Assembly: GCF_018143015.1 (NCBI RefSeq)
Contig: NC_054743.1
Location: 34,931,934-34,995,933, forward strand
Length of the DNA: 64,000 bases
Reading direction: 5' to 3'
Source of the DNA: Lytechinus variegatus
Lineage: Eukaryota; Echinodermata; Echinoidea; Temnopleuroida; Toxopneustidae
The notes under the pieces were generated by a model. It had not been told where the DNA came from and did not search any database. It saw only the letters and a program-made list of their open reading frames with translations. The position numbers and the translations under genes are program-made. Shown here in pieces: positions 6,770 to 30,199 of the stretch (within the stretch, counting starts at the first letter, position 1; each line of letters starts with the position of its first letter).

Positions 6770-8454
6770 CATCCCAACTCCATTGTTCCACCACTTGCAA
6801 GTTGCACAACTGTTGAGAATTAATTTGCACCTCAAAATTATGCAAGATTTTGAAAGTGCACATCAGACCAAAACTACCTAAATTCTTTTCTATTAAAGCC
6901 AAACATAATAAAATTGTGATTTTCCATACATACTTTTTAACAATTTGAATTTTTAATCAAACTCAATTAATATTATCTTGTTTTATTACCAGAATAGGGC
7001 TGTTGATGATCTAAATTCTCAACAAGAAAAGTTAACAAACAATAACAACAGAGCTGCCAACATTGGATAGTTGAGAGTTCTGTTTTTTAGACAGGAATAC
7101 CAGTCGTTTCTGGGTACTATTTATTTAACAATTTCTGACATTTTACTATCATATGATACATGAATGTATTGGTGAGTGCAGCCAACGTAGTTCAGCGGAA
7201 CAACTAAATACAGAGACTGAACTGCAGCTCTTTTGGTCTACTCAGTCATACTAATGATGCTACAAGGGGAAGATCGGACATTTCGACGATTTTTTGAAAT
7301 GCTCAATAAATGCTCATGGGGTAGGGCGCCCACTAGCGTTGAGTAAGTAAACTGTGTAAGAAACATCTGGGGAAAATGAAAGGGGATTTCGGAGAGGGCT
7401 CAAGGGTAGCGCGTTGGAATAATTCGACATTTTATTACCCAAAAACCTCTGAAATATATTCATCTTTGATTTAAGAAAAAAAAATATGAATAAAAGAAAA
7501 ATTTAATGTAAAAATTGTCTACAGCTGTACTCTTTAACCTCTTCACCATTTCTCTCATGTTTTGTACACAACCATATCGCGATACGCAAAAGGTACAAAA
7601 AGGTTGTTACTTACTCAACTCTTCCAAAGCGTTTCATTACGCGATCTATGTACTGTCCGATCTTCCCCAGTTGTAGTATCTTTGGGCATACTCCATAGGC
7701 CAATGATTTAGGGGTCAAAATGAGTGAGATCAATAGAAATGCATGCAAATGTAAACAAAATTTTCGAGTGAGAAAGGACCAGAAAGAGTGAGTCTCACTC
7801 TTGATGAGAGTTGGTAGCCTTTGAGAATAACAGTTTTTCCCATGATGGTGTGGTGTTGTTGTAGTGAAAGAATTTACCAAGAAAAATAGGATTAGGAAAA
7901 TCATATCGAATAAAAAGAACCTCCAGAAAGGTCATGCAGGTTGAGATGTATTTCACTTTGTTCAAAAGGTGACTCATCTCTCCTTACCAGTACCTAAACG
8001 GATAGTGAACAAAGACACAAGAGATCCCATGTTTTACGATTTCCCCAAAACACTAAAACCCTCAGTCATATCCACAGGAATTTGGTACCGTACTTGTCTC
8101 GACTGATTAAATCGGCCGTGTGTTCAGCGAGAGAAAATGACTTGTGTACATCAGAACGTACGCACATCGGAGCTAAACTCCTGAAATTCAACTAGGCGAT
8201 TTCCACGTCCATACAATAATTGCAAGAGAAAGTATAATGACAGTCGATGTAAAGGTTAATTACTTACCAAGTTCCAATTCAGTAGGTGATATACCAAGTA
8301 ATAGAGCCTCTGGTGTGTTAAAATCGTAACTTATTCCCAAATAAGTATCCAGATTCCAGTCTCAGTTACAGACGTGAACGGCTTGCAATCTATTCGATAC
8401 ATACACTGCGAGTACACGTACATCATATCAATAGCTGCATCGCATCTTCTGCTG
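6770..8454. other. Stretch with no supported gene, left flank of the large transposon
   Basis: No domain-bearing frame or coherent exon set was found. Open frames on the - strand near 7611-7977 are short and featureless. Confidence 0.5.
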
Positions 8455-8459
8455 TACTA
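8455..8459. repeat. Left target-site duplication TACTA
   Basis: TACTA directly precedes the left terminus GTCCAGATTGG and is repeated directly after the right terminus. The flanking ACT triplets on the right make the exact boundary ambiguous: a 3-bp ACT duplication with longer ends fits equally well. Confidence 0.6.
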
Positions 8460-9298
8460 GTCCAGATTGGACCTTGTTGTTTGGAAGTGCCCTTTCCCAA
8501 AAGCTAACATAGAGGGCACATGTCTCCCAATCTCTAATCAGCGCCAATCCACTCATCTTCGCTCCCCACCAAGGTCCAGTACAAAACTTTGCTGCGTCAG
8601 AAAAGCTACGCATCAATCAAACAAGTTACACGGTAGGGGGTCAGGTGCCCTAGTCTCACACACCAAACAAGACACATTTTTACCCAAACAACTTCACCTC
8701 AAACAGGGTTGAAATTGCAAAGTTGTGCTTTTTTTATACACTATAAACATAAGGCTCTGTGTTCATGCACTTAAAAAATATCTATTCAGCGCCTTGCTCC
8801 CTCGCCAGATGATTCCACCCATGAATCAAGTATCAAAGTTTGAATAAGTAGACTACACCAGTCACAAGGAGGAAACAGCTGGTAAACATCTCTGGCTCTG
8901 GCAGCATCAAGAGATGCTGACCCCCTCCCCCCATCGTGGTCAATGGGCAGTGGAGGGTCAGGGGAAACCAGACCAGAGGCCCACAGGTACGACTAGTCTC
9001 TCTTACCAAACTTTTTTCTCCACCAAAATACATTTTCACCCCAAGGACGACGGAAATACACAGATGTGACCGATGTTCTACTAAATAGACATATACCGCC
9101 ATGACAATTCAATATCCACATCTCGTGCTAGCCAAAAAAAATCTTCTTACCCATTAATTTCATCCGTGGAATAAGTATTACAGTGTAAATGACTAGACTA
9201 GGCAAGTCAGGACGGGGCAGCTTCCATGAAATGACCTCCTGACCTCCGTGATAAGCCAGCTCCCCAGGGGCCACATGGCCTCAAATTGGTTGTTTGCA
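8460..9298 (+). repeat. Left terminal inverted repeat (about 840 bp)
   Basis: The segment is matched in reverse complement by 29256-30194. Identity is almost perfect over most of the length: the 89-codon open frames on opposite strands in the two copies (8833-9102 and 29456-29725) translate identically. Divergence is confined mainly to the inner 120 bases, including about 12 extra bases here near 9214-9225. The repeat ends about 260 bases before the start codon of the transposase gene, so it may carry that gene's promoter, although I see no clear core promoter. Confidence 0.92.
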
Positions 9299-9556
9299 TG
9301 ACTGGGTTGATTTCATTGGACTTAGTTGATCGAGGTCTACAGTACATGATATTATAATTAATACAAATAGGTCCTAGAAAGGCTAGATCTATCTAAATCA
9401 TTATGTGATGTAGTTTATCGCCCAGTTTTTAGATCTAAAGATCTAAAATCTCATTGCCACCTGGCATTGGCTCTGCTGTGACTGTGACTGAGAAAACTTC
9501 CATCCTATTTCCATAATGAAGTCATTAGAAGTCTAATCTAGCTAGATGTATTGAAA

Positions 9557-12500
9557 ATGGCATCAGCAGCAGGAGGCAGATGGTGTGTTATATGTGGCTT
9601 AAATATATTGATAACTGGAAAGAACTACTATTTGCTACAGTCCAGAATCGCCTTGTTTGAGCTCCTGAAAGATGTTGTGACAGATGAAACTCTAAATGTC
9701 AGTGTCGATTCGCCGCCGGTCTACATTTGTAAAATGTGCTGCAGAAAATTGAACAATGTTCAGAAGTTGCTTAATTTGAAGGAAGAACTAACAAGAGACT
9801 ACTGGAAAACAAAAGACCAACATGAAAATTCAGTTGCAAACATCACAATGAAAATAACTTCTGTCTCAATAACACCAAAGGAAAAAGGAACACAACCCAA
9901 AAGGACTGCATCATTCTCTCCAGGGACTCCGAAATCGAAGGTAAGTAGGCTGATGCAGTTTTCAAAGCTTGATGATGAGCATTAATTGATTATAACCTCG
10001 ATCTCTAAGACTCAAGTCAAGACATGTAAGCCTAGCTTACAATTTTTAATGATTCTTCGTATTAAAAATTAAGGTTTGACAATTAAGCTTTTAACTTGGG
10101 TACATAACTGTAACGTTTATAGTCCTGGTGGATAAATGGGCTTGGTCTAGTGCCAGTGGTGACATATTTATCAAAGTAGACTAGGCCTAGTATAAAAAGA
10201 GGTAAGGGTAGAGTGGTCATCATTCATCAGCAAAAATCTTTTTAAAATGCTTTTTATTGTTCCTTCACTAGACTGTTTATAATATATGACAACAGACATC
10301 ATTTCACACCAGCTCCTGAAAGAAAACAATTTTTTAGTCATTATGACCCATTGAAATTCATGTAGGGCCTAGACTATTATTGTACTTACAAACCTCTGCT
10401 GGCAGCTGTTTGTACTCGACATCACATAGTGAAAAAAAACACAATGACCTTCTTAATATTTGATAAATTTTCCTTTAAACTTTCCCCAATATTTTGTTAT
10501 TACATTTTCCTGTATAAACTATTTTGTTTTTACTAATTATCTTGAATTAAAAGAACATAAACAGAAAATTACATGATATGTTTTAGACCTTACTTCAGAT
10601 GGTATTTAGCTGGAATAACACCAAGATTTTGTACTTCTTTTTTGTAATCCAAACTGAGCCTCTAAGTGATTATCTTAACACTTTCCATTAAGGATTTCAA
10701 TATTGAACTACTTTCTTAATTGATGTTTAACTTTTTTAGTTCTAAGTGGATTTATCACCAGAGAGCATTGTTATTTTTATGCTTTTTAATTTTATAAAAT
10801 TTTACTTTACAGCCACAGGTAAAGAGACGTCAAGTAACTGAAGCGGAGAGGACCTCCTCTTCCAATATTCAAGGAATATCCAGAATTCCGGTACCCTCTC
10901 CACAGTCATGTAATCAGGTACATAATCAACTTTTCTTTACAAGTTTTGTTTATTCAGTGTAAGTACATAAATCAAGGTTTTACTGATTTGATTAATGTCT
11001 TTTAAAGCATTGAAGACTGAAAAAAAGACAAGGTATTTTAAAAATATTCACTTATTTATCCAATACATTATAGGCCTACCCTTTTAACCAAAATGTGCTG
11101 CAGAATCATATTCCTGTCTTCATGAAAAACAAAGAAATAAAAAGTCGACCCCCCCCCCTTCACAATTTCTCAGTGACATTTCATGAATTCAATCTGAATT
11201 TATTTTGAATTCCACAACAATTCATGCATCATATATGAGAGTAATTTTATTTTCGAGCATTTGTCCAAAGATGCCGATAGCTACCTGTTTTCTTCTGAAG
11301 AATCCTCTACAATATGTTTCTTGATAATTATATGAACTCGGTCCCACCATTCAACCCCCCTCCCAGAAAAAAAGACACACATACTTCTATACAGCTTTAC
11401 TGTGACGTTGCATTAATCAAATTATGAACTCACATAAATGTAAATGTTTTGCTCCAAATTTGCATTTTTAAAAGAAAACATCAAATGTTTAAAGGCCATG
11501 CATTTTAAATCAGCTTGATAAATAGGTGTTGTGATATCTGCTCGACAATTTTGGGTATATTCCTTTAATTATTTCTGCTGATATATTGACAAGAAAAGAT
11601 GTTTTTGACCAAAATAAAGCTTATGATATCATGAAAGCAATACAGGCGTACCAAAAATATTTAAAGAGTAATGTTACTTTAATTGGAATGACAGAAACTT
11701 ATTGGAATGTTTGTTTACTAAATTTCTTGTCTTATTGATCAACATGAAAAATTATAATAAAAGTATTTAGATTTATAAATTTTTAGATGCATTTGTTAAT
11801 TTTGGCTTCTTATTTTGTTTAAATTTGATTTAGCCAAAAGAAAAGAGATCGCAAGTAACTGAAGCGGAGAGGACCTCCTCTTCCAATATTCAAGGAATAT
11901 CCAGAATTCCGGTACCCTCTCCACAGTCATGTAATCAGGTACAAAATCAACTTTTCTTTACAAGTTTTGTTTGTTCAGTGTATGTACATAAATCAGGGTT
12001 TTACTAATTTGATTAATGTCTTTTAAAAGCATTGAAGACTTTGAAAAAGAGACAAGGTATTTTCAAAATATTCACACATTTATCCAATGCATTATAGGCC
12101 AACCCTTTTTATAACCAAAATGTGCTGCAGAATTATATTCCTGTCTTCAGGAAAAATAAAGAAATAAAAAGGTTCTTAATCAAGTCAACCCCCCCCCCCC
12201 CTCCACAATTTCTCAGTGATATTTCATGAATTCAATCTGAATTTATTATGAATTCCACAACAATTCATGCATCATAATTATATGAGAGTAATTTTATTTT
12301 CGAGCATTTGGCCAAAGATGCTGATAGTGTAACATATCCACATTGCCAACTAAGGATGTCTTCGCTGAAGGAGGTGTAATGAGAATATTTTTTTGAATTT
12401 CACAACATTCACAAAATTCACCAAAAAATGCTGTCAACTTGATTGGTTTTGCAGAATTCTGCACTATTTGAATTTGTATGATGAAAACCAAGTTAGAGAA

Positions 12501-15500
12501 TTAAAAAGAAACAAGATTCCTCTCTTAGAAAAGAAAACAGATTGTTTTTTATGCTATTTCTCTTTACAATACCGGTAATTATTTTTCTCATGGATATTCG
12601 GTAATTTCATATATTTGTATCAGACTTTACCCTTAACAAGAGTTGTAATATACTTCTTCTATTGAAGGGATGCTCCAGGCTGAGAATACTCATACAATTG
12701 TATATAATTAAAATTCATTAAGGAAAATACTTAAAATTTCATCAAAATCAGATATAACAAATAGCAAGTTACAGAATGAAAAAAAAAATAGGCAAATATA
12801 GTGTAAACAGTTATATCGTGGACTTTACTTTGTAGTTGGGTACATTGTTATATATGAATATTTATCAGATGGTCTGATGATGTCACATCCCCACTTTCCA
12901 TTTTCTTTTTTGATATCCTACTACATAAAATCAGACTTAATTTTTTCATACTGTTATGAATGATGTGTCTCCTTAAAATGAAATAAGTTGCAACAGTGAA
13001 TATGTAATGCCTTTGATCAGTTGTTATTCCGATATTTTTTTGTTCTTGAAGGAAAATATTTGAATAAAGTTTATTTTAGTGAATATGAGACATCAGTTTT
13101 CTCATTGAATGTTCATGAACACATGCCTGGAACTGCTTCACCAGAATAATGCAACTCTTTAAATACCTTAAATTTGTTCATTCCATGTCCAATTTTTATC
13201 AGATTTTCAGCATTTTGCTCAGTGAATTAATACTCTATTTCAATGTGACTATTTCCAGCCTGGAGCACTCCTTTAAAGGACAAGTCCACCCCAACAAAAA
13301 CTTGATTTGAATAAAACGAGAAAAATTCAACCAGCATGTACTGCTGAAAAATTCATCAAAATCGGATGTAAAATAAAGTTATGACATTTTAAAGTTTCGC
13401 TTCATTTCCCAAAACAGTTATACGCACATCTCGGTCAGTATGCAAATGAGGAAACTGATGACATCACTCACTCACTTTCTTTTGTATTTTATTATATGAA
13501 ATATGAAATATTTTGATTTTCTCTTCATTGTCATGTGAAATGAAGTTTCATTCCTCCCTGAACATGTGGAATTCTATTATTTTAACATTTTGTGGTTCAG
13601 GCAAGGAGGTCCTAATCATCAAATTCGTAAAAATTACAATATTTTTAAATTCAAACAATAAAGAGCAAAAGAAATAGTGAGTGAGTGACATCATCGACTC
13701 TCTCATTTGGATGTAACTGGCTTGTTCATAAACTATTTCGTTAAAAATAAGCAAAACTTTGAAATGTCATAACTTTCTTATTTTACATCCAATTTTGATG
13801 AAATTTTAAGCATTGTGCTTGTTTGATTTTTCTCTATTGATTCAAATCAACATTTTTCTGAGGTGGACTTAACCTTTAATACGAATAAAACAATTTTATT
13901 GTTTAAAAATGTTTTAAATCGTTTTGAACCCCTTTTTTGACCAATGTTGTAATTTTCTGTAAATCAATTAAACCGATTTACTTGTTAAGCTCTTGATATT
14001 CGAAATACTTCTGGTAGTAAGTGATGACTACAAATTTCTATACTGAATTTCCAACAGTAAAGGTCATATTCCCCCAAATAATGAATCATGGAAATTGAAT
14101 GCTTATAAACAAAATAAGTATACTAAAGTAAGTTGACATTTTATACATGTAAGTTTATCCTCATTCATTGTACATGTATGCACATCTAGTCTCAGGTTAT
14201 TTTTAGTCTGTCTATGTAGGTGGACCGATTTTAATTTCATTATGAGTATGAAATACTTTTATTTTTCAATCAATTATGCCAATTTTAATGCACAAAATAC
14301 AAATTTGGTTTCAAATCTATAAACAAAGCCCTTGAACTTTTTACCTTTATATTGAGGAATTCTAATTGATGTGCTTTCCGATTTTCTTTCTAGGGAATTC
14401 AAAGCAACTGGCAAGCAAAGAAATCGAGAACCAAGTTAGTCTATCCGCATGATTCGATTGACCATTCAAAACAAACCAAGGTATTTATTCATCAATGTTC
14501 CGCATGTGCACTAGCAATCGTTGTTTAAACTATAAAAGACCCGTTTCTGCTGAGTCTGTGTGAATGTTCAGTCTGTGTACATGTACCATATTTAAAATTG
14601 CATGCTTATAAAAAGGATTGTTTGCAAGAAATCTTAGATAATGAGATCCCTTTTTAAACTTCAACATAATTCTTGATCTTGCTAATCTATCTGTAAAACT
14701 TGATCTGCATGTACTTGTACATGAATCCATTTTAAGTGCACTAATAGCTTGATGATTTTTACAAACGTTTTGGAAACTTTGGATCTCGGGACAGTGATAT
14801 CAAGATACAGAGGCAGTCTTGAAAGAAAGAAAATCATGGATTTCTTCTTTGGTTACTGCACAGCTGCCATCTTCATTGTTCTGAAACTGAGTTTCATTAT
14901 AGTACTAAAATCGAGAAGAATACTGCTACAAGTTACTGATTTATAAAGTTTCTGTTAAAAAATACGGTATGTCTTTTCCATGACATTATTTCTTTGAAAG
15001 TACTGATCGCCCACCAAATTACTTATTTTCAGCTTTAAAATTCTTGAATGTTCTTGAACAGTTTGGTTAGCAGTTCTGGTGCAGACAGTGCACAAAATAT
15101 GAAGGGGAATTCACACAATGTAGTTGTGCATCTCTTTGCTCCAAAAGCCTTCAATTTTCATCTCCTTTTCTGTACCACAGGCCATTCAAAGTGATTTCCT
15201 TAAAGAACTGCAGAATGAAGCAGTTGCTCTGTGCCTGCCCAATTCACAGTCAGCATTTCGGCAGCATGATGCCAAATCGTTGGTGAGTTTCCAGTTCCAA
15301 CAGCAAGAAGAGGAACTTACAAAGCATGCTCCAGGTATATTAGCATCAGTGAAAGCCATAAGCGAAAGTGACACCCTTGTCTCAAACACACAAAAGACTC
15401 AACTTTCCATTCTCCCCAAGCAAATGACTGCAGTGTCTATTCTTCTTAATGCCAGGAACCAACAGATGAACTCTCACCAAGTAATCAACAGTTTAATCTT

Positions 15501-18500
15501 AAAGGAGAGTGCCAGCAAAAAGGATGCATATGCACGACTAAATTCCCGGGGTGTGACATCTTCATATGGAACTGTTCAGAAAGTGCAAACAGATCTGGGA
15601 AAAGGATTTGATGAGAAGGTTAGAGAATGGGCAAAGGAAATTGAGGTGGAAAGTGAGAAGGAACTGAAGCTGAAAGAAGAGCAAGATTTTGTGGGTTTAG
15701 AGATTCTGAACAAAACTCGTAATGATAAAGGATTTCAAGTGGTGGCCGATAATGTTGACCTATTTATACAGGCTCGCCATCCTACAAGGAGCAACTACGG
15801 CAGTGATCTTCATATGGTGAACATATTGGCCATTGAAAATCGCATCACTGGGCACCATCTGCCAAGTGAGAACAAGGATGATTTCAATCCTGATGACATT
15901 AAATCCGAGATGTTTTTACCCAATGTTGGAGACAATGAGTCCCTCAGAAATGAGTGGAAAGTGCTGTGTGGCAAAATCATTTCTCAGTACATGCCCAAAC
16001 TGAAGGAAGAACTAAAGGAGCTACAATCATCAATACCTCATAAGCATATGGAGGAAACAAGAGCTAAGTCAAATGTGGTAAGCACAGTTCAGATATTTAC
16101 ATGAATTCTTGATCACTGTCTTGTAGAGTGCCTTAACCATTCTAGGCTATTTTGTGAGCTTAATGTCCCGGGGATCTCGAGTCAATTGTAACAAAAATTT
16201 GCACGGAGGTAGAGAATAAACAGGCAAAATATGCTGTTGGACAGGTATATTGCGTAAATTCATTAAATTTTTTTACATAAATTAATTATGTTACTTAATA
16301 TATGCAATCACATAAAGTAGCCCCCGCCCCCACCCTTTCATGTATTTAAGTTTTTGCCACCACGTGCCCGGGCATCACAAATTTAGTCTCACTATTTCTT
16401 TGATTCTTGGAAGTGGGCGGCACAGTCATAACATTTTTGCAGGGGATATACACCCCACGATGGACAAGGTTAACCTTTCGTTTCACCAAAGGTGAAAAAT
16501 GTTAATTTGAATAAATAGAGAAAAACAAAATGGCAAAATACTGGAAATTTCATCCAAATAAAAGGAAAGTTATAACATTGTAAAGTTTTACATATTTTTA
16601 ACAAAACAGTGATATGCACAACTCAGTGACATGTGAATAAGACAGACGATGATGTCGCTCACTCATCTCATTTTTTGTTCCACATGTTCAGGGAGGAATT
16701 AATTGTTTGTTTTGCTCCACAATGAGGTGAAAATTAGAATATTTCACGTATAACATAAATTTGAATACCGATGAGAAAGTGCATTTGATTGTTTTGTTAA
16801 ATTAGGCAAAACTTAAAAATGTAATACCTCTATTTTACATCAGATTTTGATAAAATTTTCAGTGTTATACATAGTGGATTTTTCTCTTTTTAAAAGGAAA
16901 AATATTCTTTGTTGGGATGGACTTGTCCTTTAACCAAGTAATATCTCTATGTAATTCCAGTGAACCCCTATTTCGCAATAAATGTGTTACAATACACAAA
17001 TTATCTGATCATGCCACTTGCTGACTTCTGAATTTGATGTTTCTTTCAACTTTTGACACTAAATTTTTGACATCTTTATGAAAAGAAATAATGAAACTTG
17101 AATTTAGGATAATTGACCTAGATACAACCATGTAGATTACATGTACATTATTCTCCAATCTCTACCATCCTGCAAATTATTGTGATATTGACTTTCACGA
17201 ACCCCTCAGGCAGGACGAAGAGAGTAATTTTTTTTTTCCATTTTCAGCCTTGTTTATCTTGAGCAATTGTACAAATTAACGATTTATATAGCGCACTGTC
17301 CTGAAAACTGACAGTTCCATAGTAAAATAAATGTACACATGTATATACAGACCTCAATACCATTATTTACTCAAAAACAGTTTAAAACAAATGAAATGCT
17401 AGATTCATATTCGTAATTTATCAGGTTATAGTCACTCAATTTAACTGCCATTTGTAAAATAAATTTTGTACAATTTTAAGCAGCAGTTGGCATGCATTTT
17501 CATAGAAAATGTAAATGTCTTTTTTTTTAAAATCACATTCATTTGAGCACATATCTATCATTGAAGATATATTATGAGAATATGTACACTTAAAAAAAAG
17601 CCAGTGCCGTTTGTTAACAAAGCATGCTCTTAGTTTTTTAATTTGTGTCTTAATTTATTGTTATCTAGGTTGATTTGGGTGTTCTCATGCACGATGAAAA
17701 CACTGCAGATGGGATATACCATATCATGCATCACCTTCATGGCTATGTTCCAGGACATGGGACATCAAATCCACATAAAGTCATCAGTGCTGGAGATTTG
17801 CTCACATGTGAACGTGAAAGTAGTTGTATAGAAGAGCAGAGAAATTCCTCAACTGCAAGTCAGAGATTAGAAGGACTTGTTCCTGTCATATCAGACTTCC
17901 ATACACTTGCAAACTTTTACCAAGTAGGTTTGATTCCTTATAAGTCAACATTCTGTAATTGAATTTGTTATGACTTGATATTTTGTGTGCATATTTTTAG
18001 ATAACTTGGAACCATAGGCCTACATGTAAATATGAGACCTTAAAATGTGACATCTTTAACTGCTTCTTACAACGAAACATCCACTACAATTGCAGATTTT
18101 TCTCTATTTGGGGGTGGGGTTGGGGTTGGTGATATCTATTTTTACCCCATATTGGTTAAAGAGGTTAATCCTTTATTATTTGTACAAGTTTTTAAAATCG
18201 AAAATCTTCAGTTTTTCCTCTCTCATGGCTAAATCTTATCCTGATAGTTCACATAACCTATTTTGATTTGATCAATTATTGCTATCTGACATCAAGCCTT
18301 TGAACTTTTGAAAAAATATTAGATTTCTTCATGAATAATATAAATACATACCTTTAAAAAATGTTATAATTATTTCTTGCAGGTAGTGTGGAAGGTGCTG
18401 TATGACCCTGCTTCTGCTGGAGACAAGGGGACCTTGTACCAGGCACGAAATTTTCTCAAAACACACAATGTCACGCAGGATCCAATAAAGAATATTAATG

Positions 18501-19483
18501 CGGCAGAGCATTTGATTGAGCAATACACAATCGCTTTGGTCCTGGCTGCTGCTCTCCATTTCTTTGGTATGAAGGATTGTGAAGATACACCTACAAAGAA
18601 CCTGTTTCAATTGAATGTCCATGGTGACTACAACAATTATGCCAATGTGATCATGGGGTCATTTGTTGACAATTACGCTATCTGTCACAATGTTAACTTC
18701 AAAGAGAAGGACTTCTGTTGCCAAAAATGCAACAAAACATATGCTTCCAGGAAGAATCTGCAAAAACACATCAAGGATAAACATCCACACCAAGAACCAA
18801 TCCAACTGCCATCTCCCACTTCAGAAGATGGTGTCTACAACTATTCCAGAGTGGCACTGGGCATGGGCTTGCTCGCCATGGATTTCCGAGATGCACGGCA
18901 GAATGGAGATGGGGAACGTATAATCCGGCTCCACAAGTTCCTACTTCTCCACTGTAAGGCGGCAAAGAAGCCAAAATACAGTTTCCACATTCTGCGCTTG
19001 TTGGCTCAGGTGCATGTATTCCTGTCACCTCGCCTGTCATATGAGTTGGTGTGGAATCGGTTTGCCAATCCTAGTGGCAGACAGTATGGTAATATGGAAG
19101 TAGATCGTCTCATGGAACACCACAATAGGGTATTCAAGGAAAGTTGTAGGGGTCTTCGTGGAAAGATTTCAAAGAAGAATATAGAGAGAATAAGTCGATC
19201 TTCACAGAGGGTTAATGAACTGCTGGAGGACATTGACAAAGAAGTCCCTGGAAGGAAACGCCGACCTTCATCAAGGCACAAGGTGGACAGGAAAGATGCA
19301 GTGGCACTTGCAGTAGACCTCCATTCACAGCTAATCTTTGAATGTCAATCAGGAAGAATGCATCACAGGTTCCCTGGCTTTCCTTCATCCCATTTCAGTG
19401 GCATTGACCCTGCTAGTCTCCATGAATGGATAAGGAACACAATTAGAAAACTGTCTCGGCAGAATCAATTTGCAAAGCACTAA
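9557..19483 (+). CDS. DUF6589-type transposase candidate, 7 exons, 977 aa
   Basis: Exons: 9557-9940, 10813-10917, 11834-11938, 14394-14480, 15181-16077, 17669-17923, 18383-19483. All introns are GT-AG and phase 0, and the total is 2,934 bases with stop. The start is the first ATG, in GAAAATGG context. Residues 1-75 hold paired CxxC motifs (WCVICG, ICKMCC), a probable zinc knuckle. The DUF6589-type core spans exons 5-7: VADNVDLF (exon 5), GDLLTCERES and ISDFHTLANFYQ (exon 6), and AAEHLIEQYT (exon 7). The conserved Asp residues are candidates for an RNase H-fold catalytic triad, which is an inference. Exon 7 adds a C2H2 finger (CCQKC...HIKDKH, near residue 725), a MEHHNRVFK motif and a basic C-terminus. 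Exons 2 and 3 are duplicates. It converges on the helicase gene within one TIR pair, which suggests it mobilises the element in the nucleus. Family recognition is firm; transposase activity is inferred. Confidence 0.82.
10795..11285 (+). repeat. First copy of a tandemly duplicated exon-intron unit in the transposase gene
   Basis: Exon 2 (10813-10917) and about 370 bases of following intron recur about 1,020-1,045 bases downstream. Exon 2 encodes PQVKRRQVTEAERTS... and shares its last 29 of 35 codons with exon 3. The intron words TCAACTTTTCTTTACAAG and TTTCATGAATTCAATCTG are shared too. Confidence 0.9.
11822..12326 (+). repeat. Second copy of the duplicated exon-intron unit (exon 3)
   Basis: This copy holds exon 3 (11834-11938), which starts PKEKRSQVTEAERTS. 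Both copies have working-looking acceptor (TAG/CAG) and donor (CAG|GTAC) sites and are exactly 105 bases, so inclusion of one, both or neither keeps the frame. Intron divergence between copies is higher than exon divergence. Confidence 0.88.
12660..13277. mobile_element. MITE with GGGATGCTCCAGGCTGAGA-type terminal inverted repeats
   Basis: The left end AAGGGATGCTCCAGGCTGAGA is matched in reverse by CAGCCTGGAGCACTCCTTT at the right end (13256-13274). There is no coding capacity. It lies in intron 3 of the transposase gene and abuts the next MITE head to tail. Confidence 0.75.
13273..13879. mobile_element. MITE of the AAAGGACAAGTCCACC family
   Basis: The ends TTAAAGGACAAGTCCACC and GGTGGACTTAACCTTTAA are inverted repeats. 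Inner sequence is partly palindromic too (GTCATAACTTT..., TTTTGATGAA...). Further copies are at 26371-26954 and 40242-40846, with damaged ones at 6545-6766 and 16466-16933. It is non-coding and inserted in transposase intron 3. Confidence 0.8.
16466..16933. mobile_element. Degraded MITE of the AAAGGACAAGTCCACC family
   Basis: The right end TGGGATGGACTTGTCCTTTAA is well kept and the left end is eroded. Inner words match the other copies. It lies in intron 5 of the transposase gene, so it inserted after the host element formed. Confidence 0.65.
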
Positions 19484-20689
19484 ATTTACCTATTCTTGGG
19501 CAGGACACCCCAGACATTATTTGCAAATATGTTGATAGAATGATAAAGATTGCAATATGACAAAGTATACAGACCTTAACAATATCCAGCCACTGAACCC
19601 CAGAATTGAATGAGACTTAGTTTAAATTATTCTTGAGAGAATTACTAAGAATATTTTAGTTGTCCTTAGTAATTAAGTTTATATTCAAATTTAGATTTTA
19701 ATCAGTCGATTGGACATGTGTATACCAAATTGTTTCCTCACAAAAAGAAACAAAAATGCATGCAAGGTGGATCTAATATATATATTTTCCATCACAGTAC
19801 CTAATGTGTAGTAATTTTGGCGTTTATTGGCTTACTCCATAAGTAAAAGTGAGTCCAGTCTTGTTTTCATTTTTAAGTTTTAAGGATACCTATTAATGTA
19901 TGTAGTATCAAACTTATCATGAATTAATCCAATTTGAAATGTACTGTGGCTGTTAGATGTAAAAAAGGAAAGGAGAGAAATATTTTTGGGCTAAATTACA
20001 CATTCAATAAAGTTTAGAAATGCTGCAAAAGTTAAAGTTTAAAACAAAAAAAAAGCAGAGTAATTGTTATTTGTTAGGTATGACCTCATGCTTTCAAGTT
20101 TGACAGTGTAGATTCTGACACTGGTGAATTTGATTTGTCTGAATCTTCAAATTCATTCTGGTAAAATAAGTAAGCACACCTCTTAAATAATTTTGATTGC
20201 TGAATACTTGTTAGTAGCAATAAAGCCTTCATCTGATGCCATTAATATTTTTCTCCTTTATGTTAAATCATGTGTGCAGATGACACATCACAAAGTGGCG
20301 ACACTTATCATGCTGGCACAAAGGGATTTAGAGAAGATTTCATTATATATATTCACATTTTTTCCTATATTAAACCTGCTGACTTTCAGTTGTCACCATT
20401 TGGTCTATTTGTCTTTGAAGCCAAGATATATGACAAATCCCATGATATGAGTCTGATGAAATCATTTTATTCATAATGTAATAACCATAATAGATATAAT
20501 AGATTTCAGTTCCTCAATTTCCTTTCAGAATATTATCAGTATATGATGTCAAACATAAGAAATATGTTCAAATTGATGAAATGGTGCAATTTTAGGGGGA
20601 AATATAGTTGTAACAGAAATGGGCCCAACTCTTAACACATGGCTATCTCAAAAAATAAATAAATGGCCATTCTTTTTATGATTTTTGTC

Positions 20690-21300
20690 TCCCCTGCATA
20701 GCAAATCGAGACTGTAGGCACTGCTTTTTTGACGTTGGTGGCGGCATTGTCCTCATAATTGAATTCTTAACCAGGGTTAAGTTTTTGAAATGACATCATA
20801 TCTCAGGAAGTAAATGAAAATAGTTAATGAAACTTTGACATAAAAATATAGGGTAATCAAGTATTACTGAACATTCTGCTTGAGGTTCAGGTCACATGAC
20901 CAAGGTCAAAGGTAATTTAGAGTTGAACTTCGACCATGTTGAGCATTGAAGCAATATCGAAATCTTAACCACAGTTAAGTTTTTGATTGCCGTCTTAAGT
21001 CTTAACTTAAAAAGTATTTAGACCTAGTTCATGAAACAAAGACATAAGGGTTATGGTGTATCACTTGAGATCCTGCCCGAGTTTCAGGTCACATGTCCAA
21101 GGTCAAAGGACACTTAGAGTCAACAATCTTCTTTGGCCATGTTTTCGGATCTAGTTTATGAAACTTGGACAGAGCAGTCAATTATCCCTGAACATCCTGT
21201 GCCAGATTCAGGTCACATGACCAAGGGTCAAAGGTCATTTAGGGTCAATGAACTTTAGTAATATTGAAGGTATTTTTTTAGAATTGTCATAACTTTGAGA
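20690..21300 (+). repeat. Imperfect tandem repeat block with GGTCACATGACCAAGGTCA core
   Basis: The core CAGGTCACATGACCAAGGTC (or CATGTCCAAGGTC) recurs near 20888, 21087 and 21211, each within a longer related unit containing TTAACCA(C/G)(A/G)GTTAAG and GAAACTTTGACA-like words. The block begins after TTTTTGTCTCCCCTGC. It is a nested repeat of a type frequent in marine invertebrates. Confidence 0.65.
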
Positions 21301-23221
21301 AAAATTTATTGATCTAGTTCAGGAAAATGTGTGCTTTTATTTAAGAGATTGGATATGTGCATGTATGTTTGTAAGAGAATTCAGCATGAATCATCTAATT
21401 TTGTTGTGTCTAGAGTGTGTTTATCTCAATGATTAATGTAAATAAAATTGTTTCCATATCTTTGGTAATTGTTCTCCCCTGGGTTGTGATATTTGTCACC
21501 CATCACAATCATGAAGTTCAAGGGATCCTTGTCTATGAATGCGTAGTTTGAATTGATACCAAGCAAACAGTGAACACATTTGGATTCAACTGAGTGATTT
21601 GTTCCCTATTTGGCAATAATCATACTATTCCATTATAATTCTGGTGGAGAAAACATAGAAAGTGAGACAGTGATCGGTTTTCAGAAAAAGGGATATGATA
21701 CAATCCTACTCGATGTGTAATAATTGTAAACTCCAGGAGGTTTTGAATTTACCAATGAAGTAATGACTTGTTTATTTTTTTTACAAATTCTAAGTAGCCT
21801 GTAGGCCTACCTGTTAACCTTTTTATTTGCAGTTGGGATGCCTGGAACATGTGTGAACAGATTTAGCCAACAATTGTCCCTTTCATTTGTGTACATACAT
21901 GTAAAGGCCTGTAAGTTGAAAGAGGTACAAAACATGTTCATCGCCATGGACTGCATTTTTGGATGATTATTACATGTATTTCATCACATGCATGTATACT
22001 AAAAAAAATCAAAGTGCATACATGCTTGTGGCAAAGTGGTGCAATTCAGGGAATGCGATATTGCAATAAATCTGCATAATCTAAGGTTCTGTAACCATGA
22101 TACGATTAAAAGCTCTTTCAAGAATACCAGCCTTAAAATTAATCTTTTGAAATTTTCAGTACATGTATATTATGCCTACATGTACATGTAGGTATGAATG
22201 TATATTTGCTTATTACCAATAGTCATGTACAGTGTACATTTTTTTATTGCAAATAAATCATACAGTAGCCATTTATTTCTAGTTTATTCCTTATTTTCAG
22301 TTACTGCTTTTATTAAAAAAAAACTACTAGTATCACTCAGAAGTGTCTCACTTAGCAGGGCTGCATATTCAGACCACAACTGTAACACTTGTGAGTGAAG
22401 GGTTGCATAGCAGCTACACTTTTATACTAAGTATTATCACACTCTCTTTCAAATATATTGCTGTACACATGCATGACAAAAAACACGTTAAAATGGTTGT
22501 TGTTTTTCTGTTTTGAACAAGGATGCCCTTGCACTTTCATGTATTAGGTAGATAGAAAACACCAATTAAGACAGAAAATGACTTTGGTTTTGAAAGGCAG
22601 ACTGGTCAAACATATTTTGGGTATGTTTTTTAAGACTACCCAAACATGTTTAGGGTATGCTTTTTCCTCCTTGTTTCGTAAAAGTGTTCTGGTTATTTCC
22701 AATTGGGGTATTTTAACCCTAACTGCACTTGAGGGCATGCAATGAATATATTTTGACTGTTTAGGTTTATTGTTAGAACATTGCCAAACTTCTTAGGAGT
22801 CATATCCTGGCGATTTAGAGGCAAAAATGTGTAAATGAAGCCTGCTAGAAAACTACATGTAGTTTAGGGGGTTATTTTGCCCACAGAAAAACTTGCTTAG
22901 GGGGTGTTTGGAAATTATGTGGTCACACATGTGTACAGTAATACATTTGACTGCCCCCTCCCCCTTCTCATTCAAGTTATTTTCTCCCTGTCTCTCGCAA
23001 CTTATTTTTTCTCTGTTCGTATTTTGGTCTTTCATCATTTCAAAATAGCAACTTTCATTTGTATATTTCTTATTTGAAAATAATTATATAAATCATTGTA
23101 TTCATCACCTTGCTGCACCAATCAATCAAGCACTCAAATCAATCTACCAAACTTTCATGATACATGCATAATGAATCATTCAAATCAACCAAGAAATCAA
23201 AAATAAAAATCAATCAAATAT

Positions 23222-24310
23222 CAATGACCGTAATAAATCAATCGAGACACATATCTAGTTCAGCTATACATAGAAGTATATTTATGTACCATGAATTTAC
23301 ATACTCTTTATATGCAAATTGAAAACAAAATAAGACATGACAACAGGTAAAAATACAATTAGAGATGTGTTCAATAGAATGATCCAAGTTTTGTGTTGAA
23401 ATACAGTGTATGCACAGAAATTATCAAGAAAATTGAAACAAATTATTGACATGTCTGTATATGCAAAACAATATCTCCAGCAGGTAATACATGTACAATA
23501 AAGATAAATGAAAGTAGTCGCAGTAAATACTGATTTCACAAGAAAGTCTGCAAAACCAGGCTTGTCATTAAATCATCAAGGATCTAGAGCTGGTGCAGTT
23601 ACATGTACATAAACTGAACTTTATGAAATCTTGAAATATTAATAGCAGTAAATAAATCAATCAAGACACAGCTACTTCAGCTAGTACAGTATATTTATGT
23701 ACCATGAATAAATTTACATACTCTTTATATGCAAATTGAAAACAAAACAAAATAAGACATGACAATTAGTAAAAATTCAATTAGAGATATGTGTTCAATA
23801 GAAAGATCCAAGCTTTGTGTTGAAGTATGCACATAAATTATCAAAACAAAACATTTACATGTATATGCAAAACAATATCTCCAGCAGATAATACATGTAC
23901 AGCAAAGATAAATGAAAGTAGTTGCAGTGAATACTGATTTCACAAGAATGTCTGTAAAACCAGGCTTAATTGTCATTATATCATCGAGGATCTAGATCTG
24001 GTACAGTAACATAAACTAAACTTTGTGAAATCTTGAAATATACACTGCAAAATGTTCACACTGAAGATCACCAACACAGATCTGCACACGTGGGACAGTG
24101 AATTATTACTGCTATGAATGCCGGCACGGCGCTTGACCTGAATCCCGTGCTTATTTGCTAATTTCTTAGCAATTACTCAATTTCTTCCAGAACCTTTTGG
24201 CACATATTTTTTTATTTATACAAACAGACACTTTGATGGATATTTCATTAGAATCTGTCATTTTGACATCGTTACCACAACTGGCATTTATCTTTAACAA
24301 TAGTCAATAA
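23222..24310. repeat. Dispersed repeat, left half tandemly duplicated, copy inside the transposon
   Basis: Segment 23222-23620 (from AATAAATCAATCGAGACAC) recurs at 23645-24010 with scattered changes. The right portion, 23925-24310, is closely matched by 37965-38365 in an IBTK intron, including AAAACCAGGCTTAATTGTCA and TTCACACTGAAGATCACCAA. No coding frame or clear terminal repeats were found, so its class is unknown. Confidence 0.75.
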
Positions 24311-25035
24311 GATCTGCCAGAAGAATAGTCAATAATGTACATGTAGCTTGTGTTTAAACCTGATACATGTAGTTCAAATATAAAAGTATATGTGAGCCTA
24401 CATATACATGTACATGAAATTAATGTAACTACAATTAAAATTAAAAAAGAAGGGTAGTTAAAGAACATGTTTTATCAAAAATCTAACAACAGGACTTGAT
24501 ACAAATTAATATACAATTACTAATTTGATCTCAAATTTTGAAAAAAAGTCTTCATCTTCATGTACATGAGTGTCAAAAATTACATGTACAGCCCATCTCA
24601 AGTTGTGTCTGCTCTTTAATCAACTTTTATACTGTATGTTAAAGATATGAACATGTACAAACACTATTTCATACATGTAGATTGCCCACTGACGATCAAA
24701 ACTTAAATATAAGTATAGGCAAGCCTTCACACATTTCTCCTTTTGAAAGAACAAAATATTTCTCATTATCAACCTTGCTGTATTCAGTGGAAAGCGATGA
24801 AAATGTCAGGGTAGCTTTCTAGTGTACATCCGATCCTGAAATTTGTAAGATAAACTTTCGTAGGACTTTTCAAACAAAAAAGAAGATAACATGCTGGGTA
24901 TCTTCAAATAAATCATTCAAATGATCACAAATCACATTACATGTAGAATGATGGTACAGTTCTAGAAACACTCAAATATCATTACAATACAGCAAAATGT
25001 ACATTGTATCCCCATTGCAATGCTTCGGACTGACA

Positions 25036-28000
25036 TCAATTGTCACTGTCACTGTCGATGTGATAGTCGTCTAAAATAATCTCATCATATTCATCCCCAG
25101 ACCATTCATCAGAATCATACATGTTTGTGCAAGTGGCTGGAACATCATTTTCATCACCTGCAATTGAACCGCGATGTAAAGAACCTGAGTAAATCCTCCA
25201 ACATTCCTCTCCTATTTCTTTATTCCCAAACCTGTATCTTCTCAGGAACTCTACTTTAGGGATAACAACATTGATATCGAGCAAAATCATGTCAATAACT
25301 GATGAAGGAAGGCCACAAGCTATATCTGGTCCACTGTACAGGGATTCAGGACTTCCCAGTAGAGAATCTCTGTATTGCTTTAATGAACGCTCCAACTTAG
25401 CATGCTCCTCCTCTGATGGGACAGACACATCAAATTCACTCAGTTTTTTCTCCCTGCAGATTGACTCGTATGCCAGATGTTCCAATCGATAGCATGGTGT
25501 GTCACATGTACTCCCAGCACACATGCACTTCAAAGCACAAATGTCGCAACACTCATGTAATACATGTACAACATCAGAAGTTTGAGCTTCTCCGAAACAG
25601 TCTACAATCGCTGCTCGTCGGCAGGAATCACCATTGATGTATCTCTTGATTTCATCTGAGGTACCATGCTTTGTGTCTCCTGGATACTTCATGCAAATAC
25701 TCAAGCTCTTCTTCCCATCTCTCCCGACTCTCCCAGACATCTGTACATAATCATCGATATGACTTGGCACTCCATACATGATGACGTTGTGACAGCCTTG
25801 TACGTCCACACCCATGCCAAAAGCAATCGTTGCCACAAGCACCCTAATCATTCCCTTGCTGTCTCCGAAGTCCTTCACGATATGTTGCTGGACGTCATCC
25901 TCGCTGTTGGTGTGATACATCTGTACATAAGCCTTGTGTGTGGGGGGCAGCTGATACATGAACATGGAATAAACTTCCGAAACAATCTTCCTTGACTGGC
26001 AGTAGACAAGAAAACGGTCACAGTCTCTTCCTCTATCTTGTAGCTCTTTGACGAGAAAAGCCAGATTGGTATCTGGTGAATTGGATGAAGATTTCATAAA
26101 TGAATGTTTGATGTTACTCCGGTCTGGCGATGCACTGATTGTGGTGTAGTTTTTCAAACTTAAGGATTGGACGATACTCCTCCTAACCTCTTTGGTTGCG
26201 GTAGCTGTCAAAGCAACGACTGGAACTGGTGGAAGAATTGAGCGTAGCTCACCAATCTTGTTGTAGCTCTCTCTGAAGACCTTGGTTGTCCCAGTTGACT
26301 GACCCCTATATGAATGAAGAGATAAAAAGGGGAAAAGAAAGAAGGTTACACTATGTGATGAAATGTACATTTAAAGGACAAGTCCACCCCAACAAAAACC
26401 TGATTGGAATAAAAAGAGAAAAATTCAACAAGCACAACACTGAAAATTTCATCAAAATCGAATGTAAAATTATGGCATTTTCAAGTTTTACTTCATTTCC
26501 CAGAACAGTTGTATGCACATCTCGGTCGGCATGCAAATGAGGAACTGATGACATCACTATTTCTTTTGTATTGTATTATATGAAATATGATTTTTTGTCA
26601 TCATTGTCGCGTGAAATGAAGTTTCATTCCTCCCTGAACACGTGGAATTCCATTATTTTAACATTTTGTGCTTCAGGCAAGGAGGCCCTAATCATCAAAT
26701 TCGTAAAAATTGAAATATTGTATAATTAAAACAATAAAAAGCAAAAGAAATAGTGAGTGAGTGACATCATTGAGTCTCTCGTTTGGATGTTACTGGCTCA
26801 TTCATAAAACTAGTTTGTTAAAAATAAGGGAAACTTTGAAATATCATAACTTTATTTTACATCCGATTTTGATGAAATTCTCAGCATTGTGCTTCTCTTA
26901 TTTTCCTCTATTGATTCAAATCAACATTGCTCTGTGGTGGACTTGACCTTTAAAGAAAGACTAACTTCCCCCCTGTAAATTTCAGCTTAAATCATGTTGT
27001 AGGCCTATATAAAGAGTTGATCGATAAGATTTGTTGGTACATGTGGGCTCTGCCTCTGTGAATGAATAATCAATTTTGTACAAAATTTTATCTAGGAGGC
27101 ATGTTCTTTTACTCAAAGAACTTTTTTTACTGAAATGCAAAATATCGAAAATAATGAGAAATTTAATATGCTTGCCGGATCTAGCCTACATGTACATCTA
27201 CATGTATCTATTCAATTTTGGGCCAGGCAGGAATTCATATGTATAAACCGATTCACATTGATTGACCAGTGCAGTGACCACTGCAATATTTTTTACCTGT
27301 ACATCTGCATGTATACATAACCATAACCATAGTTGTTGTGTGTCTGGACGATCAATTTTAGAAAGTCAGTTGGAAAAAATACAAGCAGTTTCATCAATTT
27401 TTAGTCCAAAATGTTAAAAAATATCATGGAGAACAAAATAGATGATTGCAACTATTGAATTCATATTTTTAGTGTAATCCAAATTTTAAAAAGGCTTCAA
27501 AATTATAAAGTGTCCGGACACCCGACCCCCCCCCCCCCATCCTACATGTACTGTTATAACTCATTATCATATGAAAAGGGTGACAATTTCAATCCTACAC
27601 TACTTTTAATATAAATTTATCAAATTCAGAAAAATAATCAAAAAAAAAAATCAATACTGTAACAATGAAAGCATCTTACCATTTCTTCACACAGTGGCTT
27701 TCATCCACAAAGAGTCCACATAGCCGACCCCTCACAGTGCTTATTGTGATTAGGTCCCTTCCAGAGTCTCCTGTCAAAACTTCAGGGCTTGAGAGTATCA
27801 AGGAATGGCAACCATTAGCTAGCTCTTCCCTGATTTTGTCGGTGATTCCTCCACTCAAATCAACAGCTGAAATACCACTTTTCCTCGCAATATCAAGTTG
27901 GTCTCGGATAAGTGATTTTAGAGGCATAACCACTATGGCAAGTGAATTAAATCCGACATCTTGACCACGAAGAAAGTCCATGCATAGAGGAGCACCACGG

Positions 28001-28158
28001 AAAACTACACTCTTTCCAAAGCCTGTTGGCAAGCTAACGAACAGATCGTGTCCTAACAAAAATGAAGATAATGCCTCTTCCTGTTGCTTCCTGAATTTGA
28101 TGGAAAGTTTTCCTGAGGCATGAAGTAAAGCGTCCTGTAAACTGGGTCTGGTACCCAT
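25036..28158 (-). CDS. RecQ-like SF2 DNA helicase of the transposon, 2 exons, 582 aa
   Basis: Exons 28158-27680 and 26305-25036 join across a GT-AG phase-2 intron to give ...DESHCVKKW|GQSTG..., 1,749 bases with stop. An ATP-dependent helicase is predicted from the ordered RecQ motifs: FRKQQEEA (motif 0), LPTGFGKS (Walker A), FVDESH (DEAH box), ALTATAT (III), FLVYCQSRK (IV), VLVATIAFGMGVD (V) and QMSGRVGRDG (VI). A Cys cluster follows (HECCDICALKCMCAG...C), like the RecQ zinc-binding module. The C-terminus is short and acidic, and no HRDC domain is seen. The usual HDFRP segment after the DESHCVKKWG motif is replaced by QSTGTTKVFRES. A MITE sits in the single intron. Inside a TIR-bounded element and convergent with the transposase, it probably assists transposition or repair; a co-opted cellular gene is the alternative. 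Confidence 0.88.
26371..26954. mobile_element. MITE of the AAAGGACAAGTCCACC family in the helicase intron
   Basis: The ends TTAAAGGACAAGTCCACC and GTGGTGGACTTGACCTTTAA are inverted repeats. It is closely similar along its length to 13273-13879. It lies wholly inside the intron and does not disturb the coding sequence. Confidence 0.8.
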
Positions 28159-29255
28159 TCCTCTAAAAATCGTCTCAAAAACTGGCTTTAAGTTTCAACA
28201 AAAATACATGTAGATGAACTCTAGTTTGACACTTTGTTTGTCAAACGCGAACTTTAGTTTGAACCAAACTTCGAAGCAAAAGTTCCAAAATATCTCGTTA
28301 TAAAACAGATGTATACTAGTTGTGCTTCGTCTGGTAATTTAATCGGTAAAAATGTGAGTGGAAGAACAGTACTAATATACAGCCTGGCAAAAATCAAAGG
28401 GTAGATCTACTCGCGGAATCGAAGATACATGTAATACTATAGTGCATGTGGAAAAATCAGCTTGTATTAAACACACCATAGCTAGGGCATGAACACACAG
28501 CCAGCTAATCCAGCCAAACAAAAGAGTTATCCAACCATGCACCTGGCAGACAATGCAACACCAACAAGCTAAGTTTGGTGTGTAGTCTGATCATTCAAAC
28601 TGTAATATTTTATTCTCGGATGAAAAGATTTTGTAAGATAGAAAACACTCAATAAAACAGCATATCATTGAAAAGCATTCCAATATTATGGCCATATGTA
28701 CATTCAAAATGGATTTAAATTGATTTTACTTTGGTGTTTTAATGTTAATGCAATTTAAAACATTTTTCTTCGTATTATCTTGGTTTTATTATGATCATTG
28801 TATGTTATCGGTCTATTATCTGCCCTAGTTTATGCCGGGATTTTAAGCTTTTGGTTACTTTTTGATGAATATATATTAATAAGACTTGAAATTGAATTTG
28901 TTTTGACCAATCGATTTTAATAGTTATAATGTACTCAATCAGTCATTGTTGACATCAAGCAAAAACAGTTACAGTGTATATGCACTAAAAATGGGGGTAA
29001 TCTTATTGTTATAATTTGACGAATTAAGCAACTTAATGATTATGAACAGCATTCCCTTTAGAAATATTTGATATGACTACTTTTACAGGGGGCAAGGGTT
29101 TGCATGCCTCCCCCAAGATTTACCACCGAAAGGTCAACAAATCATGAAAAGAATAGGATTCAAATTTTCCAAAGTATTGAGAAACAATGTACATATCCAC
29201 ATGTAGGCATAACCATGGAGGTATGGCATACTCATCGGGATACACTGGAAACAAG
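28159..29255. other. 5' flank of the helicase gene inside the transposon
   Basis: About 1.1 kb between the helicase start codon and the inner end of the right inverted repeat. No gene is seen. The word GCAAAAGTTCCAAAATATC and short inverted segments near 28228-28275 (TTTGTTTGTCAAACG..., TTTGAACCAAAC) are present but unassigned. Confidence 0.5.
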
Positions 29256-30194
29256 TGGCAAACAACCAATTAATGTTACAAACGCTGAATGCCCTGTGGC
29301 CCCTGGGGAGCCGGCTTATCACGGAGGTCTGGAGGTCATTTCATGTCCTGATTTGCCTAGTCTAGTCATTTACACTGTAATACTTATTCCACGGATGAAA
29401 TTAATGGGTAAGAAGATTTTTTTTGGCTAGCACGAGATGTGGATATTGAATTGTCATGGCGGTATATGTCTATTTAGTAGAACATCGGTCACATCTGTGT
29501 ATTTCCGTCGTCCTTGGGGTGAAAATGTATTTTGGTGGAGAAAAAAGTTTGGTAAGAGAGACTAGTCGTACCTGTGGGCCTCTGGTCTGGTTTCCCCTGA
29601 CCCTCCACTGCCCATTGACCACGATGGGGGGAGGGGGTCAGCATCTCTTGATGCTGCCAGAGCCAGAGATGTTTACCAGCTGTTTCCTCCTTGTGACTGG
29701 TGTAGTCTACTTATTCAAACTTTGATACTTGATTCATGGGTGGAATCATCTGGCGAGGGAGCAAGGCGCTGAATAGATATTTTTTAAGTGCATGAACACA
29801 GAGCCTTATGTTTATAGTGTATAAAAAAAGCACAACTTTGCAATTTCAACCCTGTTTGAGGTGAAGTTGTTTGGGTAAAAATGTGTCTTGTTTGGTGTGT
29901 GAGACTAGGGCACCTGACCCCCTACCGTGTAACTTGTTTGATTGATGCGTAGCTTTTCTGACGCAGCAAAGTTTTGTACTGGACCTTGGTGGGGAGCGAA
30001 GATGAGTGGATTGGCGCTGATTAGAGATTGGGAGACATGTGCCCTCTATGTTAGCTTTTGGGAAAGGGCACTTCCAAACAACAAGGTCCAATCTAAGATG
30101 AGTGGATTGGTGCTGATTAGAGATTGGGAGACATGTGCCCTCTATGTTAGCTTTTGGGAAAGGGCACTTCCAAACAACAAGGTCCAATCTGGAC
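29256..30194 (-). repeat. Right terminal inverted repeat
   Basis: This is the reverse-complement partner of 8460-9298. It is about 100 bases longer because of a 96-bp internal tandem duplication next to the terminus. The inner boundary is at the shared AACAACCAATT word, where homology stops. Confidence 0.92.
29999..30190. repeat. 96-bp tandem duplication within the right TIR
   Basis: Copy 1 (29999-30094) and copy 2 (30095-30190) differ at a single base (GGCGCTGA versus GGTGCTGA). The left TIR has one copy only. The duplicated unit covers the subterminal region, where transposase binding would be expected. Confidence 0.93.
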
Positions 30195-30199
30195 TACTA
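30195..30199. repeat. Right target-site duplication TACTA
   Basis: TACTA follows the right terminus CCAATCTGGAC and matches the five bases before the left terminus. Confidence 0.6.

Follow-up and report, generated by a model that had tools for sequence, protein, structure and literature searches.

In Lytechinus variegatus, a 21,739-bp segment of contig NC_054743.1 (here C4) can be read, with a probability of about 0.87, as an apparently autonomous DNA transposon of the AcademH type. It occupies positions 8458-30196 of the window, the whole 64,000-nucleotide stretch of DNA that was analyzed (C4:34931934-34995933), and carries a gene for a protein with the DUF6589 domain and a convergent gene for a RecQ-like helicase between long terminal inverted repeats (TIRs). 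The element has defined ends, a 9-bp target site duplication (TSD), two intact genes, gene-less relatives, and a second family that has diverged in sequence but shares its genes, layout and tip motif. It is filed with AcademH because a helicase and TSDs of 9-10 bp fit the published description of that lineage.

Ends and genes of the element

The ends were aligned with those of 15 other copies; the element starts with TAGTCCAG, finishes with CTGGACTA, and has the tips TAGTCCAGATTGGAC (Table 1). The left end recurs unchanged in 13 of the 15 copies (c1b and c4c differ in its first base), and all 15 have the right end. A preliminary description of this DNA had set the borders at 8460..30194, each 2 bp too short. 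It had also reported matching flanking repeats; a direct duplication is present, but it measures 9 bp, with eight of nine bases in agreement, and not the 5 bp of TACTA, a candidate that was dropped after the 15-copy alignment, in which TA is part of the element. The long, near-identical TIRs of the same description were confirmed: as a single alignment the two arms span 816 bp at 98.0% identity, 750 bp of them identical. Arm pairs were found at 8464-9213 and 29345-30094 (750 nt, 100% complementary), 8454-8559 and 30095-30200 (106 nt, 98%), and 9225-9279 and 29291-29345 (55 nt, 95%), and the terminal 96 bp of the right end are present as a tandem second copy. The 750 identical arm bases suggest either recent movement or homogenization of the arms. 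A genome query for the empty site of this insertion, made from its joined flanks, matched only the element's own two flanks.

Both genes appear open and intact at the level of sequence. The DUF6589 gene, on the forward strand, has six exons and encodes 942 amino acids, in phase 0 throughout; the RecQ gene, on the reverse strand, has two exons and encodes 582 amino acids. All introns are GT-AG and each gene has a single terminal stop, in agreement with the earlier account of two intact, convergent, spliced genes. That these were "exactly two" holds for the recognized coding content, but the interior also carries several repeats: two copies of a repeat of about 600 bp (near 13272-13879 and near 26370-26954), a tandemly repeated stretch at 23291-24041, and a segment of about 0.5 kb doubled about 1 kb apart (10811-11280 and 11832-12327), which duplicates exon 2 of the DUF6589 gene.

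Proteins of L. pictus are 95-98% identical to both element proteins. PF20231 (DUF6589) was matched above cutoff in exons 5 and 6, and the L. pictus relative P0001 matched it with an E-value of 3.3e-42 over residues 437-873. Two weaker matches fell below the Pfam cutoff, a C2H2-like finger within the PF20231 domain and a zf-AD-like N-terminus (E 0.022). Some searches with the DUF6589 protein used an earlier 948-residue model that included the exon 2 duplicate and lacked exon 3; the final model has exon 3 and omits the duplicate, as in the L. pictus protein. An additional exon at about 16164-16244 was rejected, since exon 4 runs in phase into exon 5, as it does in P0001. In the RecQ gene, DEAD and Helicase_C domains are accompanied by a borderline zinc-binding match, at 25.6 bits in the window exon (cutoff 25) and 24.2 bits in the RecQ relative P0010. 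Neither the window gene nor P0010 matched an RQC domain; the solved sequences closest to P0010 are WRN, bacterial RecQ and BLM. No nuclease family scored above cutoff in homologues of either protein.

Gene-less relatives and a second family with the same genes

The assembly (869.6 Mb, 33 contigs) was queried with window 8400-9000, which gave 46 matches from 40 scored of 369 candidates, so that counts are lower bounds. The ends recur genome-wide, and the element is therefore not a product of chance; as far as sequence comparison can tell, the other copies of the same ends indicate mobility. Fifteen paired, TIR-bounded loci of 6.4-19.6 kb, a subset of the listed pairs, were compared. Their ends are 84-90% identical to those of the window element and the internal repeat of about 600 bp about 70%; c15a and c7 have two more pieces in common with it, of about 400 and 140 bp. 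A relative of the window's 600-bp repeat at this level of identity occurs in all 15. The two arms of each copy are 94.6-99.9% alike, and the interiors are 21-100% shared among copies, depending on the pair. The duplications match at 9/9 bases in 11 copies (one poly-C), at 8/9 in one and at 7/9 in another; c7 (C7:32141100-32148200) has a 15-bp duplication and c1b none that is clear. A shorter, 1.2-kb copy at C8:31895438-31896645 carries GGATGCCGG on both flanks, a perfect 9-bp duplication. Within its center lies another pair of tips, separated by about 200 bp, a foldback-like arrangement with a nested mini-element, and no duplication was found around this inner pair. The copy at C1:1.763 Mb sits in a tandem array in which a neighboring unit equals its joined flanks exactly and another differs by two substitutions (...CATATGGGATCCATATGGGCAATG...); this empty site identifies GATCCATAT as the TSD and assigns TA to the element.

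A TIR search had been proposed in the preliminary description as a way to find full-length copies with the same two genes. The ends do recur with 9-bp TSDs, but both genes are absent from all 15 loci: neither protein could be traced there at E 0.01, with queries that recover every exon in the window, and the longest stop-to-stop frames are 297 amino acids in c4c and at most 162 in all others. Since these loci have the same ends and 9-bp duplications, they are non-autonomous relatives and not a refutation. The missing genes, and the fact that little beyond the ends of about 800 bp and the 600-bp repeat is common to the window element and these copies, would also fit a gene-less long-TIR transposon of another superfamily, one copy of which merely captured both genes. 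Such a capture is very improbable, given a decayed copy at C5:13705048 in which a window-type end adjoins RecQ exon sequence (88.6% identical DNA), and a second element with the same convergent pair, TAGTCCA-N-TGGAC tips and a perfect 9-bp TSD. A further decayed relic, at C10:26000446, retains a DUF6589 exon that is 73% identical and interrupted by six stops. Among genome matches to DUF6589 exon 6 (13 matches) and RecQ exon 2 (42 matches), no intact coding copy of the window element's subfamily appeared other than the one in the window.

Two loci outside the window, C4:4.55 Mb and C4:1.49 Mb, have both genes arranged convergently as in the window; their DNA is 94% identical between the two over the longest aligned stretches, and their proteins are 43-53% identical to those of the window. 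At C4:4.55 Mb, most exons of both genes were recovered by tblastn, with one in-frame stop per gene in the matched stretch. Its borders were sought by scanning position pairs to either side of the genes (4544000-4548290 against 4562840-4567900) for a 20-bp inverted match with a 9-bp TSD, with no end sequence assumed. The only pair with a TIR of at least 16/20 and a TSD of 9/9 was C4:4547523-4566568, a 19,046-bp element (TAGTCCACCTCCTGGAC... / ...GTCCAGGACGTGGACTA) flanked twice by CTGCTTCAT, a perfect 9-bp TSD; dinucleotide-shuffled controls gave 0 of 60 at this threshold and 1 of 60 at a TIR of at least 14/20. Its TIR is recognizable over about 17 bp only, and it shares with the window family the tip TA-GTCCA-N-TGGAC, a small palindrome. 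The 17-bp end, with at most one mismatch, occurs 187 times in the genome against 6 for the reversed control, and the places listed are largely plus/minus pairs, many of them about 200-260 bp apart. In 20 such short copies the TSD matched at 9/9 in 13, at 8/9 in 3 and at 7/9 in 2, while 2 were unfit (6-bp match); after copies with identical flanks were merged, the corresponding numbers among 16 independent insertions were 11, 3, 1 and 1. The conserved host synteny that the preliminary description had raised against its own reading does not hold, as the gene pair is not bound to one locus and the second element has its own 9-bp TSD. At C4:1.49 Mb, homology to the C4:4.55 Mb element ends 211 bp before one terminus, the other terminus gave no match longer than 100 bp in the 4 kb examined, and the locus is counted as a decayed copy only. 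A second-family end at C4:1465467, about 20 kb from this gene pair, may be a displaced terminus.

Table 1. Features of the element, in window coordinates.
Feature	Position	Strand	Remark
TSD, left copy, CTGCTGTAC	8449..8457	.	8/9 bases agree with right copy
Left TIR, begins TAGTCCAGATTGGACC	8458..9279	+	border fixed by 15 other copies
DUF6589 gene exon 1; N-terminal Cys pairs, zf-AD-like match below cutoff	9557..9940	+	P0001 residues 1-132
DUF6589 gene exon 2	10813..10917	+	P0001 residues 132-167
Exon 2 duplicate, in frame, splice sites present	11834..11938	+	L. pictus protein with one copy only
DUF6589 gene exon 3	14394..14480	+	P0001 residues 168 onward
DUF6589 gene exon 4; invariant DN (Asp386 of P0001)	15181..16077	+	
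DUF6589 gene exon 5; invariant GD.L (Asp538 of P0001)	17669..17923	+	
DUF6589 gene exon 6; most of PF20231, C2H2 finger, invariant EH.N (Glu825 of P0001), stop	18383..19483	+	
RecQ gene exon 2; Helicase_C, RecQ zinc-binding, stop	25036..26305	-	
RecQ gene exon 1; ATG start codon, DEAD domain (motifs TGFGKS, DESH)	27680..28158	-	
Right TIR, inner long arm	29291..30094	-	
Outer tandem copy of terminal ~96 bp and true right end CTGGACTA	30095..30196	-	
TSD, right copy, CTACTGTAC	30197..30205	.	8/9 bases agree with left copy

The DUF6589 protein as candidate transposase

We infer that the DUF6589 protein is a DDE/D transposase. The association with the element strongly implies, without proving, that it is a DDE transposase, as the preliminary description had proposed in calling DUF6589 the transposase core; by fold, through resemblance to Hermes and RAG1, this is weakly implied. 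The AlphaFold model of P0001 (10 alignment rows) had a mean predicted local distance difference test (pLDDT) score of 49.4, and its best Foldseek match (E 0.27) was to unrelated proteins. The model of P0002 (9 alignment rows) reached a mean pLDDT of 58.7, with a best E-value of 1.6 in the PDB, where RAG1 appeared twice at E 7-10, and of 0.98 against a viral structure library. The VIA comparison of the P0002 model was the only look at the fold that ranked a transposase first, and a weak resemblance to the hAT transposase Hermes and to RAG1 lies within residues 163-744. Neither sequence nor Foldseek searches gave a significant match of the DUF6589 protein to hAT or RAG1 recombinases, and all of the 60 matches listed, of 120 in a PDB sequence profile search, cover the zinc-finger stretch only. 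The duplications also differ, with 8 bp for hAT and 5 bp for the RAG transposon against 9 bp in the window element.

Mutator-like elements (MULEs) have long TIRs and duplications of about 9 bp, and the long TIR, 9-bp TSD and large gene-less relatives described here would suit a MULE as well. This assignment is nonetheless highly improbable: a Pfam comparison of the four largest exons and of 10 aligned relatives gave no Mutator transposase domain, and DUF6589 is the only transposase-sized match. One further, fungal, member was added to the DUF6589 relatives by another protein search, and the term "DUF6589" was not found in the literature searched. Diverged DUF6589-like frames occur at C2:21.04-21.10 and 28.21-28.27 Mb (L035-L038), forming two pairs that resemble each other and lie some 7 Mb from one another, with 28-34% identity and 430-444 open amino acids; by eye, the EH.N motif is absent from L037 and L038. 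A different lineage and a domesticated gene are alternatives for these frames.

Classification, proposed mechanism and meaning

The AcademH lineage was reportedly first described by Kojima in 2020 (Mob DNA 11:15), under a title that places it in animals and fungi. AcademH elements carry TIRs, and the window element does too. In the relevant passage of the IS481EU paper, AcademH has TSDs of 9 or 10 bp and is linked to a helicase, and AcademX, within the same superfamily, has TSDs of 3 or 4 bp and is linked to a nuclease (PMC10045372). Compared with that published description only, the window element resembles AcademH in pairing a candidate transposase with a helicase gene (DEAD and Helicase_C, RecQ-like) and in its 9-bp TSD; from AcademX it differs in the helicase and the TSD length. 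Duplications of the AcademH length were found at the window element (8/9), at 12 of its 15 relatives (9/9 or 8/9), at the second-family element (9/9), and at 16 of the 20 short second-family copies (9/9 or 8/9). The Academ resemblance seen in the preliminary description is in agreement with the AcademH passage, and its suggestion of a possible distinct group is not supported, as helicase and 9-10-bp TSD already describe AcademH there (PMC10045372).

A new superfamily apart from Academ, marked by DUF6589 with RecQ, very long TIRs and large size, could be argued from the 816-bp TIRs and the 21.7-kb element, with the Academ transposase compared by description only. With TIRs of about 820 bp and a total length of 21.7 kb, the window element may or may not lie within the range described for AcademH. 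TIR length is uninformative, however: it differs between about 820 and about 17 bp in two families that share their genes and TAGTCCA ends, and it is therefore no group character. As the combination of helicase and 9-10-bp TSD is that of AcademH as published, in the passage cited above (PMC10045372), a separate superfamily is quite improbable. With high but not full confidence, sequence comparison places the window element as a new member of the AcademH lineage and not as a distinct group.

KolobokH, a RecQ-bearing Kolobok lineage, has a negligible probability. The Kolobok TSD is TTAA, which conflicts with the 9-bp, sequence-variable duplications here. KolobokH likewise combines transposase and RecQ helicase, and in Kolobok-1_CCri the RecQ lies on the opposite strand, but in KolobokH the helicase is downstream of the transposase domain (PMC9587614), as opposed to a separate convergent gene in the window element. 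In a fungal survey, DEAD and Helicase_C are among the domains attributed to elements of the AcademH, KolobokH or Helitron type (PMC10799480).

For this AcademH-type element, the DUF6589 protein would bind the long TIRs, its N-terminal Cys pairs and C2H2 finger being candidate binding parts, and would cut at the TAGTCC/GGACTA ends. The 3′ ends of the element would be joined to target strands 9 bp apart, and filling of the gaps by host repair would yield the 9-bp TSD. Beside the transposase, the RecQ protein (DEAD, Helicase_C, zinc-binding) may unwind the ends or branched intermediates, and both proteins could act in trans to mobilize the copies that lack genes. In 3 of the 16 compared copies, at window 29999-30196, C1:20509541 (L020) and C8:43235426 (L021), the terminal 96-105 bp are present twice in tandem. 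The C1 and C8 doubled tips have the junction CTTCGC-TAGTCC in common, and the window junction is short by 9 bp of it. The C8:43.24 Mb copy has a perfect 9-bp duplication outside its doubled tip, and doubled ends therefore seem able to transpose. It is conceivable, if unlikely, that the element goes beyond simple cut-and-paste, that RecQ-assisted excision or gap repair unwinds and partly recopies the ends to give doubled tips, and that animal and fungal DUF6589 proteins are DDE transposases of a helicase-assisted class with ends that can grow by doubling of the tips.

The lineage described in 2020 thereby gains, in a sea urchin used in the laboratory, an apparently intact candidate autonomous element with long identical ends, gene-less relatives, an empty site and a diverged second family. 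The Pfam family DUF6589 is now tied to DNA transposition, and many animal and fungal "DUF6589 proteins" probably belong to transposons and not to the host's own gene set. With the window element, the need for a RecQ partner in transposition becomes testable.
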